From the NCBI RefSeq assembly GCF_017353455.1, contig NZ_JAFMPZ010000193.1:1-32800 (forward strand): 32,800 nt of DNA. Direction: 5' to 3'. This document shows positions 10,482 to 13,336 of this stretch, one piece after another; the first letter of the stretch is position 1; each line of letters opens with the position of its first letter. A program made the translations under genes and the position numbers. The notes under the pieces were generated by a model. That model worked only from the letters and a program-made list of their open reading frames with translations, ran no database searches and was not told where the DNA came from. Source of the DNA: Streptomyces laculatispora (GTDB lineage: Bacteria; Actinomycetota; Actinomycetes; Streptomycetales; Streptomycetaceae).

Positions 10482-10924
10482 CATACGACACCGAACGCGC
10501 ACCCCTGATCCCCACAGAATCCCCCGAGGCCGCCGAACAGCGGCCAGTAGCCCCCGACCGGGCCGCCGAGCAGCCGCTGGCAGCCCCCGACCGGGGTGCC
10601 GAACAGCCGCTGGCAGCCCCTGACGGGGGCGCCGGAGCCGTCCTCGCAGCTGATCGGCCGCTCTTCCCGGAGGGCGATCAGGAGAGGCTGATCCTGCGGC
10701 TCCAGCATGCGGTGACCGAATTCGTCGAGAGCCCCCTGCGAGCGGTCGGGGAAGCCGAAAGCGCCTTCGACGCAGCCGTCGACGGCCTCGCGAGCGCCCT
10801 CAAGGAGCGTCGGCGCGAGATGGGCACCCAGCAGCAGGGCGAGGAGTCCGGGACCCGGACCGAGGAACTGCGGATCACCCTTCAGCAATACCGCGATCTC
10901 ACCGAACGGCTGCTGAACGTCTGA
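10478..10924 (+). CDS. Hypothetical protein with Pro/Ala-rich repeat N-terminus
   Basis: A 148-residue soluble protein, co-translated with the gene before it. Residues 1-60 are low-complexity and carry three tandem 11-residue units of the form AEQPLAAPDRG, encoded by three 33-bp DNA repeats. Residues 65-148 are helical and amphipathic (ERLILRLQHAVTEFVESP, ending RITLQQYRDLTERLLNV) and could form a coiled coil or bind the partner's helical domain. I cannot name a family with confidence. Pairing with the membrane-anchored gene suggests a two-component structural or stress unit, which is inference. Confidence 0.7.
   Translation: MTYDTERAPLIPTESPEAAEQRPVAPDRAAEQPLAAPDRGAEQPLAAPDGGAGAVLAADRPLFPEGDQERLILRLQHAVTEFVESPLRAVGEAESAFDAAVDGLASALKERRREMGTQQQGEESGTRTEELRITLQQYRDLTERLLNV
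10532..10630 (+). repeat. Three tandem 33-bp coding repeats
   Basis: Units at 10532-10564, 10565-10597 and 10598-10630 are each 33 nt and closely similar, the second and third most so. They keep frame and encode the repeated AEQPLAAPDRG-type peptide. Copy number probably varies among strains. Confidence 0.8.
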
Positions 10925-11084
10925 GGCGAGCGGTCACAGCCCGAGGCCGCCACCGCATTCCGCACCAGCACCAGCACCCACGGCACCCGGCCGTTCCCGG
11001 CGACGAGGAGCTCGATCCGGATGCCCTTCCCGGCGGGCTGGTGCGGTGCCGGCAGCAGGCACGGGAGGGCCTGACGCGCCCGGG

Positions 11085-12008
11085 TCAGTGCTTGTGCTCG
11101 CCGGAGTCCGGGGACTGCGTCCGGCCCGTGTCCGGCTTCCCGGCCTCGACCGTGAACGCGGCGGTGTGCACCTTGCCGCCGTGCCGGAAGTCCAGGAACA
11201 GCCGGTAGGTGCCGCCGCTGGGCGCCGTCGCCGCGAAGGAGACAGCCGGGCCCGGGCCGCCCTCGGCGGGATGCACATGCAGGTAGGCGAGGTCGCCGGA
11301 GCGCAGGGCGACGAGATGCCCGTACGCGCCGAGATAGGGCTGGAGGTCGGTGACGGGCCTGCCGTTCCTGCTGACGGTGAGCTTGAGATCGCTTTCCCGG
11401 CCGGCCTTCAGCCCGCCGCCCAGGTCCACGCGGTAGCCGTCGGTCACGGCGGTGGCGCGCGCGGCGGGGAAGGCCTTCGGCCGGTAGTCGCCCGAGACCG
11501 CGAGGTCGGCGCCGAGGACGAGTTTGCGCGCGCCTTCGGCCGCCGGGGTGAAGTCGGCGAACGCCCGGTAGTCACCGGCGGCGGGCAGGTCCACCGGGAC
11601 GGACCAGGTGCCGTCGGACGCGCGCACGGGGTGCAAATGCCGGTAGGTGCCGAGGTCGCGCGAGGCCAGGATGAAGTGCAGTTCCTTGCCGTGTTCGCGC
11701 TGGTAGTCGGTGACCTTGCGACCGGTGGCGTCCTCGACGACGGCGAACCGTATCCCGGTGCGGGCACCGGCACCGACCTCAGGCGTCTGCAGCTCCAGCG
11801 TGTAGCCCCCGTCGGATACCCCCAGCCCGCCCGCCGGGCCCGCCGCCCCGGCGGCGTCCTCCTGCTGCGTGCCGTGCCCGCCGTGCTCCGGCGCGGGTCG
11901 CGCCTCGGCGGCCACCAGCGGGTCGATGCCGTTGCCCACGCCGTAGGCGACACCGAAGGTCACGGCGAGCGCGGCGGCATAGGCGGTGATCTTCAATCCG
12001 TTGTTCAT
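11085..12008 (-). CDS. Membrane-anchored, His-rich protein, probably copper-responsive
   Basis: A 307-residue protein with an N-terminal signal or membrane segment (about residues 6-25), a His-rich linker (PEHGGHG, about 40-46) and a His-rich tail (SGEHKH). The exported part has two similar halves, each with a beta-rich segment ending in a His-X-His-Pro motif: ELHFILASRDLGTYRHLHP in the first and LVALRSGDLAYLHVHP in the second. I have no family name for it. The ATG at 12008 has a GGAGGAG site about 7 nt upstream; an earlier in-frame start (12068) would lie inside the promoter. That promoter holds a CsoR-like palindrome between its -35 and -10 boxes, so copper induction is expected. A periplasm-facing copper-binding or copper-buffering role is inferred from this and the histidines. 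Confidence 0.8.
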   Translation of the reverse strand: MNNGLKITAYAAALAVTFGVAYGVGNGIDPLVAAEARPAPEHGGHGTQQEDAAGAAGPAGGLGVSDGGYTLELQTPEVGAGARTGIRFAVVEDATGRKVTDYQREHGKELHFILASRDLGTYRHLHPVRASDGTWSVPVDLPAAGDYRAFADFTPAAEGARKLVLGADLAVSGDYRPKAFPAARATAVTDGYRVDLGGGLKAGRESDLKLTVSRNGRPVTDLQPYLGAYGHLVALRSGDLAYLHVHPAEGGPGPAVSFAATAPSGGTYRLFLDFRHGGKVHTAAFTVEAGKPDTGRTQSPDSGEHKH

Positions 12009-12045
12009 GGCGCTCTCCTCCGGGAAACGGCCGCTTCGAATGCCC

Positions 12046-12073
12046 AACATACCCCCTAGGGGTATCAAGTCAA
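12046..12073 (-). promoter_or_regulatory. Promoter with CsoR-like copper operator
   Basis: On the minus strand TTGACT (12068-12073), a 16-nt spacer and TATGTT (12046-12051) form a good vegetative promoter. The palindrome ATACCCCCTAGGGGTAT (12049-12065), with 7-bp arms ATACCCC/GGGGTAT around CTA, fills the spacer. Its form matches the GC-rich TACCC...GGGTA operators bound by CsoR copper sensors. Confidence 0.7.
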
Positions 12074-12136
12074 CCCGGGGGCGGGCGGAGAACGGAGCGC
12101 GGTCGCCGGGAGGCGGAGGCAGCGGAACCGAAGCCC

Positions 12137-12179
12137 GAGGGCTGTCCCGTGATCAATCACGGATCACGGGACAGCCCTC
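12137..12179 (-). terminator. Terminator of the tyrosine phosphatase gene
   Basis: A perfect 18-bp stem (12137-12154 with 12162-12179) has a 7-nt AATCACG loop. The arm nearer the gene includes two bases of the phosphatase stop codon, so the hairpin begins at the stop itself. It insulates the downstream copper-type gene. Confidence 0.85.
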
Positions 12180-12975
12180 AGACGGGGGACACGAGTTCAG
12201 TGCGCAGACGCCGCAGGACCGCTTCGGGGATGCGCAGCCCGTCGCGCACATAGCCGTCGAGCCCTCCCCACCGCTCGTCCATGGCGTCCAGCGCCGTGTC
12301 GAGGTAGCGGGGACGGACCTCGATGATCGCGGAGGCGATCTCCGGGTCACCGCCGGCGTCGAGGAAGTTCTGCACGTACGGCCGGAAGGCGACCCGCACC
12401 ACCGGGTTCACCGCGAGGTACTCGATCCTCACGACATCCCGCGAGGCGCCCAGCAGAAGGAGCAGCAGGGCCGCCGCCCAGCCCGTCCGGTCCTTGCCCG
12501 CGGTGCAGTGGAAGAGCACCGGGCCCGCGGCACCGTCGGCGACCGTGTCGACGAAGGCCCGGTACGCGGCCCCGGCGCGCGGCGAGAGCACCATCTGCCG
12601 GTACGTCTCCGCGAACATCTCCTCGGCCTTTCCGTCCCCGAGCAGCCGCTCCGCCTCGACCGCGTCGGCGAGCAGGGCCCTGAGCCGGGCGGGTGCCACG
12701 CCCGGGTTGTCCCCGAGCACATCGGCGACGAACAGCCGGGCCCCGGGCGGCAGGCGGTCGGGGGCCGACGCGCGCTCGTCCGCGGTCCGCAGATCGACGA
12801 CCGTGCGGATACCGAGTGCCGCCACCGCGGCGTCGTCCGCCGGATCCAGCCCACCGAGCTGTCCGGAGCGCATCACCCGGCCCGGCCGGACCTGGCGGCC
12901 GCATTCCAGGGCGATGCCGCCCAGGTCACGCAGATTGAGACCGGATACCTCCGGGATGACCCTGACGGTTTCCAC
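12178..12975 (-). CDS. Tyrosine-protein phosphatase (MptpB/Y_phosphatase3 type)
   Basis: A 265-residue protein phosphatase. The P-loop HCTAGKDRTG places the nucleophile at Cys157 and the phosphate-binding Arg at 163, with the KD variation typical of the MptpB-like dual Tyr/Ser and phosphoinositide phosphatases. The N-terminal NLRDLGG segment and VVDLRTADER are also family landmarks. No secretion signal is visible. The GTG at 12975 has a GAGGAAG site about 8 nt upstream and puts the conserved domain 10 residues in. It is transcribed alone, ending in a very strong hairpin. The substrate in Streptomyces is unknown. Confidence 0.9.
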   Translation of the reverse strand: METVRVIPEVSGLNLRDLGGIALECGRQVRPGRVMRSGQLGGLDPADDAAVAALGIRTVVDLRTADERASAPDRLPPGARLFVADVLGDNPGVAPARLRALLADAVEAERLLGDGKAEEMFAETYRQMVLSPRAGAAYRAFVDTVADGAAGPVLFHCTAGKDRTGWAAALLLLLLGASRDVVRIEYLAVNPVVRVAFRPYVQNFLDAGGDPEIASAIIEVRPRYLDTALDAMDERWGGLDGYVRDGLRIPEAVLRRLRTELVSPV

Positions 12976-13336
12976 GATGAACTTCCTCTTTTCCCGACAC
13001 GTATCCGAATTGATTTCGGCTTGGCCGGATCAAAAGTCGCGTGAGGCCGGGAATTCGACAGAGCCGAACGCCGGGGATGATCGATCGGGCACGCAGGTAC
13101 ACGGGGCAGAAAGGATGACGCGTCACCGTATCCCCGCCGGCCCGCGGCTCCACGGGGATGCGCGGGAGCGGGCAAGGGGCGGGAGCGACGTCGCGGCCGG
13201 GCTCCGCACGGTGCCGCACGCACCGCCCCGGCCGGTCGAATACAGCTTCCGGGACCGAAGATTGATCAATACGCCGCACACACCCGCGAGTGGCGGACGG
13301 GAAACACGCAAACCGGTCCCGCCCGGACGGCCGCGC
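12976..13336. other. 361-bp spacer without a gene
   Basis: No reading frame here has convincing coding character on either strand. The part next to the phosphatase is relatively AT-rich (about 12990-13040) and should hold its promoter. A perfect 10-bp palindrome ATTGATCAAT lies at 13261-13270 in a second AT-rich patch. I see no convincing terminator after the SHOCT gene. Confidence 0.5.

Follow-up and report, generated by a model that had tools for sequence, protein, structure and literature searches.

A very likely CsoR operator in the promoter of a gene for a predicted exported protein with paired histidine motifs in Streptomyces laculatispora

The window analysed here, a stretch of 32,800 nucleotides from Streptomyces laculatispora (contig NZ_JAFMPZ010000193.1, positions 1 to 32,800 of the forward strand), carries on its minus strand a gene of the SCO1044 type (11085 to 12008, start codon at 12008) that encodes a protein of 307 amino acids and is preceded by the ribosome-binding site GGAGGA (12016 to 12021, minus strand). 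Direct reading of the sequence upstream of the gene gave a minus-strand promoter with the -35 hexamer TTGACT (12073 to 12068), a spacer of 16 nt (12067 to 12052) and the -10 hexamer TATGTT (12051 to 12046). A consensus scan of positions 10900 to 13100 found this sigma70-like pair alone, where shuffled sequences gave a mean of 0.0 (standard deviation 0.2). The promoter is overlaid at 12049 to 12065 by a perfect 7+7 dyad, ATACCCCCTAGGGGTAT, in which ATACCCC and GGGGTAT enclose CTA and whose core TACCCC-N3-GGGGTA occupies 12050 to 12064. Promoter and dyad were thus borne out as the initial annotation had described them. Its statement that the dyad fills the spacer needs a small correction, since the dyad begins 2 nt past the -35 hexamer, at the third spacer base, and enters the -10 hexamer by 3 nt, so that the first three bases of that hexamer are common to both.

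Between the promoter and an upstream gene of the tyrosine-phosphatase family lies a hairpin (12183 to 12133, minus strand; 22 bp, -46 kcal/mol, z -10), a possible terminator that would isolate the transcription unit. Because this hairpin separates the gene from the phosphatase gene, the gene probably forms a transcription unit of its own. The hairpin has no T tail, and a terminator scan showed no terminator at 12133 to 12183. The same hairpin, with some changes, is present in a second genome of the species (G166, listed as 100% complete).

The dyad was compared with CsoR operators of known behavior. Three such operators of S. lividans were measured by calorimetry, with the consensus ATATACCCCTNAGGGGTATAT and a reported Kd of 74 nM for csoR-EXT (Tan and colleagues, PMC3902906). 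As described in that report, a CsoR operator needs a TAC/GTA inverted repeat spanning 9 bp; half a site showed no detectable CsoR binding, and Cu(I)-CsoR gave no binding isotherm. The window dyad is a TAC-N9-GTA inverted repeat with C/G tracts close to this consensus, and its core, TACCCCCTAGGGGTA, equals the core given there for copZA1 and copZA2 letter for letter. In its 9-bp repeat and its C/G tracts it is like the type 2 operators of S. lividans (csoR, copZA1 and copZA2; PMC3902906), and it also overlaps promoter elements of its gene, the promoter in the window being recognized by consensus only. It is unlike the S. lividans operators of that report in that the predicted site precedes a gene apart from copZ, copA and csoR.

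The same motif was found at copper promoters of the genome, in a scan of the kind that the initial annotation had suggested. Four exact dyads are present in the window's assembly (G000), and they precede copZ-copA, a copA gene, a His-rich DUF4396 gene and the 307-aa gene. G166 likewise has four exact dyads, three of which (those of copA, copZ-copA and the 307-aa gene) correspond to G000 by their flanks, while the DUF4396 dyad matches on one side only. The G166 orthologue of the 307-aa protein is 96% identical, with an identical promoter and the same phosphatase gene upstream, and the csoR promoter of that genome contains the dyad with one change. The earlier remark that the dyad has the form of known CsoR sites is strongly supported by the measured S. 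lividans core, by its position in orthologous promoters, by the motif at copZ-copA and copA and by a CsoR in the same species; judged from these sequences, it is very likely a CsoR operator. At the second of the G000 copper sites, the dyad is flanked by the separate copA on one side and by a CutC-family gene, oriented divergently, on the other (L003 1-2414, G000:C285).

Conservation was followed in 75 named loci, which were found with patterns from the window protein and therefore lean towards close relatives. They consist of 65 Streptomyces-type loci (64 from named Streptomyces and one from Microtetraspora glauca, which groups with them in the tree) and 10 others. The initial annotation had stated that orthologues lacking the dyad in their upstream region would speak against an operator, and we looked for such orthologues. 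Of the 65 Streptomyces-type loci, 64 have an exact dyad in the 700 bp before the gene and all 65 have one with two changes or fewer, so that the operator reading stands. The sole locus without an exact dyad (L099) and another with its exact dyad at -428 (L054) both carry, in the promoter itself, a dyad with one change. A strict promoter, TTGACn-16 nt-TAnnnT with the dyad ending the spacer, was present in 60 of the 65 loci, TTGAC and the 16-nt spacer being kept together; of the remaining five, four have a -35 hexamer that is weak or missing, and one has a variant -10 hexamer. Most columns of both half-sites reach 1.8-2 bits and TTGAC 1.7-1.9 bits, the promoter flanks being mostly below 1 bit except for a run of C about 45 bp upstream (1.0-1.3 bits).

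A sample of 61 genomes across the genus, which overlaps with the named loci (for example at L008 and L053), gave 40 matches spread over 33 of the genomes. Among 30 loci of this sample, including the window, the exact dyad was found in 26, a dyad with one change or none in 29 and the strict promoter in 22; leaving out the window (n = 29), the counts are 25, 28 and 21. Outside Streptomyces an exact dyad was found in one of the 10 loci, 307 bp upstream. The non-Streptomyces genes are mostly part of a run of copper genes, and they may not need a promoter of their own.

The gene neighborhood of the orthologues was explored with a scan for CopZ and CopA motifs. According to the initial annotation no known copper gene is adjacent. 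This holds in the window, where the motif scan found no copper gene near the 307-aa gene, and fails for the group at large: in 47 of the 65 Streptomyces-type loci a copZ and/or copA motif lies just upstream on the opposite strand, in divergent orientation, and more dyads are often present there. No CopZ/CopA motif was detected in the other 18 Streptomyces-type loci, in a motif scan (not a full annotation) that extended about 5 kb to either side as far as contig ends permitted. Near the gene, every one of the 18 retains a dyad that departs from the exact form by two changes or fewer; against strict conservation, two of them have only a one-change promoter dyad and four lack a good -35 hexamer.

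On a quick tree (L111 and L112 omitted because of a short reading from the match start), in which many branches are weak and several are long, the state without copper neighbors requires six changes, two of them forced by well-supported branches. The window gene sits in a starred set of eight genes on this tree, all without copper neighbors. Separation from the copper genes, or its reversal, thus probably happened more than once, the long branches leaving the number unsure.

Among the non-Streptomyces loci, copA lies downstream on the same strand in nine of the ten (Blastococcus, Geodermatophilus, Micromonospora, Actinokineospora, an acidimicrobial genome and Pseudonocardia), and in seven of these nine copZ is also found upstream; the Pseudonocardia locus has, in addition, a CsoR-like motif that precedes copZ. 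The tenth locus is a weak Cohnella match with copper-gene motifs farther upstream. Seven of 231 matching plasmid records were also examined. The order copZ-gene-ATPase was found on Mycolicibacterium and Rothia plasmids and the order csoR-ATPase-copZ-gene on one Staphylococcus capitis plasmid, and the Nostoc, Haloprofundus and Hymenobacter plasmids have metal or copper neighbors. The relative on the Priestia plasmid has no obvious copper neighbor. The S. capitis protein is 28% identical to the window protein and has all six motif histidines in common with it; it differs in its length of 218 aa and in lacking an N-terminal hydrophobic segment in the annotated frame.

The initial annotation called the 307-aa protein His-rich and exported. 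Its His content is only moderate (13 His, 0 Cys and 1 Met in 307 aa), and what stands out is that histidines are placed in conserved motifs. The first domain contains H111-x12-H124-x-H126-P127 (11628 to 11678, minus strand) and the second H231-x12-H244-x-H246-P247 (11268 to 11318, minus strand), and both motifs are invariant in an alignment of 26 actinobacterial proteins (A1, from which L111 was omitted because of stops). The motif histidines of both domains are also invariant in a second alignment (A2) of 11 sequences from five phyla, which includes Staphylococcus, Priestia, Hymenobacter, Nostoc and a haloarchaeon at 28-38% identity; the Nostoc sequence has a short insertion in the domain 2 motif. 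An AlphaFold model built with the 26 sequences (mean pLDDT 78.7, pTM 0.70) predicts an N-terminal hydrophobic helix (residues 4-19), then a linker of low confidence, then two beta domains with pLDDT mostly over 75. Profile comparison identified the two domains as duplicates, the His motif of one aligning with that of the other (E 2.8e-15, 31% identity over 87 columns).

Membership of a known copper-binding family was considered and rejected, since the protein matches none of the Pfam and NCBIfam models at its cut-off. The sub-threshold matches, seen in relatives only, were to Cupredoxin_1 (15.4 bits against 27) and YtkA (24.0 against 25.9). No sequence relative was found in the PDB, the three matches at E of about 0.09 being azoreductases. 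Structure searches with the whole model returned generic Ig-like and filamin folds with low TM-scores, and Z of at most 9.1 in a second search, and no copper-binding fold was recognized among them. The predicted fold is therefore given only as the "Ig-like beta sandwich" of the structure search, the list of which may miss a copper fold. A second member of the family, 40% identical, is encoded elsewhere in G000 (L174 1683-2351, G000:C144); the 3.6 kb around it contain no CsoR-like dyad, and its neighbor is an ORF that has hydrophobic segments and is His-rich at its end.

Taking operator, neighborhood and protein together, we consider it highly probable that this is a CsoR-repressed, copper-induced gene for a predicted exported, probably membrane-anchored protein that most likely binds copper. 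Copper-free CsoR would cover the spacer together with the first bases of the -10 box, blocking RNA polymerase; Cu(I) would free CsoR, and the gene would be induced by copper together with copZ/copA. The product, with its two duplicated beta domains and a three-histidine motif in each, is predicted to be exported and probably anchored in the membrane. That it binds copper on the outer face is our best guess from the conserved histidines and the genomic partners, where it would accept or buffer the copper that CopA expels. In the species of the window the gene would have come to stand apart from copZA with its own CsoR promoter kept, and the link to copper thus appears to persist where the gene is no longer beside copZA. 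What had been a guess from sequence becomes in this way a well-supported regulatory prediction.

A different reading accepts the dyad as a CsoR site and takes the protein for a general cell-surface protein, or one for another metal, that is merely carried along with copper genes. The generic Ig-like folds from the structure search, the lack of a Pfam or NCBIfam family above cut-off and the Priestia relative without an obvious copper neighbor would all suit such a protein. Its linkage to copper-export genes in several phyla would not, nor would the invariance of the paired His motifs, and we consider this reading unlikely, if deserving of some weight. We prefer a copper-binding product, and of the results of this analysis it is the family of this protein that offers the better lead: it is a conserved partner of copper-export genes across several phyla, and none of the models in the Pfam and NCBIfam copies searched passes its cut-off. 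More tentatively, and with confidence a little short of even, we propose a widely distributed family of copper-export accessory proteins, ranging over haloarchaea, cyanobacteria, actinobacteria and staphylococcal plasmids, whose two beta domains would bear three-His copper sites and buffer or accept the copper of CopA, and which would have left copZA in Streptomyces more than once with the CsoR promoter kept.

The identity of the regulator was examined next to that of its site. The window's own assembly is 84% complete in 663 contigs, and no copper CsoR with the Cys-His-Cys signature was found in it, which counts against control by CsoR. Its sole DUF156 match (L005 382-660, G000:C100) keeps both Cys residues, has Gly at the position of the copper-CsoR His (Cys-Gly-Cys) and has a rhodanese/YgaP-type neighbor; because of these features we call it CstR-like. 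G166 has the L005-type protein and a second DUF156 protein, which is nearly identical across the core to the CsoR of S. lividans (PDB 4adz, E 7.6e-63), has the Cys-His-Cys signature and is preceded by the one-change dyad.

The operators of CstR and CsoR look alike, and one could argue that another DUF156 regulator, either a CstR-like persulfide sensor or a second CsoR, binds the window dyad and makes the gene answer to sulfur or to another metal; the fact that the only DUF156 match of the window's assembly is CstR-like favors this. No TAC-N9-GTA dyad is present in the 2.1 kb around the CstR-like gene in G000, or in the first 1.6 kb of the CstR-like locus of G166, and this absence near the gene lowers the case for control by CstR. 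The dyad does occur at csoR, copZ-copA and copA, and the genomic partners of the 307-aa-type gene are copper genes. Control by another DUF156 regulator therefore seems very improbable to us, and CsoR remains the regulator we favor.

Chance was assessed with a first-order Markov model of the window, under which the expected number of exact 15-nt cores is 0.00046 per window and 0.10 per 7.3 Mb, against the four exact sites of G000, and that of the 17-mer dyad is 1.2e-5 per window. Over all 75 named loci, 71 exact dyads were counted around the gene and none for 29 permuted half-sites together; farther from the gene the counts were 26 and 3. Scans that tolerate mismatches are uninformative on their own, the motif being hardly commoner than its reversed control. 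A scan of the window with up to three mismatches gave two matches for a chance mean of 0.62, with 14 of 100 shuffles giving at least two, and sites with one mismatch numbered 12 against 9 for the reversed control in G000, 15 against 7 in G166 and 8 against 6 in a third genome (G246). This weak one-mismatch control does not alter the odds, since it is the exact dyads and the conservation of the promoter that carry the argument. A chance palindrome or a transcription hairpin in place of an operator, for which the G+C-rich genome and these non-significant or hardly raised mismatch scans might be invoked, has a negligible probability given the exact-copy expectation of 0.00046 per window, the permuted controls at 0 against 71 and a dyad position kept in 60 of 65 promoters; by these three results the chance palindrome was ruled out.

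The suggestion that the gene is a new member of the copper regulon has to be given up in that form. SCO1044 and SCO3280 of S. coelicolor are listed as "putatively repressed by CsoR" in PMC6414726, which cites a 2012 J Biol Chem paper for this. G246, a genome that bears the exact S. lividans copZA1 operator, encodes an orthologue 70% identical to the window protein; its gene points away from copZ-copA (SCO1045/1046 in S. coelicolor), carries a spacer dyad of its own and so occupies the position of SCO1044, with which it is identified by position. The gene in the window's species differs in not being beside copZ-copA. Since SCO1044 had already been predicted (PMC6414726), our finding recovers a predicted regulon member where the gene stands alone, and what it adds is this stand-alone position and the family with paired His domains.

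As tabulated in PMC6414726, SCO1044 was up 2.0-fold in a copZ-type mutant and 2.2-fold in Wt80Cu cultures of S. coelicolor, while SCO3280 was down in both conditions and csoR, SCO1045 and SCO1046 were not significantly changed in Wt80Cu. The SCO1044 changes are not a clean CsoR derepression, because they are about twofold and csoR and SCO1045/1046 show no significant change in Wt80Cu in those data, and their support for copper control is weak. Literature searched by locus tag contained table entries and lists that name SCO1044, and no study of the protein among them.

The fourth exact dyad of G000 precedes the gene for the His-rich DUF4396 protein (L001 893-1515, G000:C120; see also L166 and L169), a possible counterpart of SCO3280. 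This protein belongs to another family than the 307-aa one, and its identity with SCO3280 is suggested only by a Csp-like neighbor. In G246 a similar DUF4396-like ORF with a dyad adjoins a Cys-rich Csp-like ORF, the two possibly corresponding to SCO3280/SCO3281, and in G166 a dyad lies directly before an internal part of the DUF4396 ORF, the His-rich start of which is missing.

Staphylococcus accounts for 96 of the 231 matching plasmid records, and the S. capitis relative described above (L175 4875-5531) lies directly after copZ between IS257 copies and is short, with no apparent signal peptide. On a Streptomyces megaplasmid (L021 587-3739, G019:C2, the same place as in NZ_CP108509.1), four exact CsoR dyads were found within about 3.2 kb, surrounding two copies of the 307-aa-type family, a CopZ-like ORF and a Cys-rich ORF with CSCALPCPC, which together may form a copper island.
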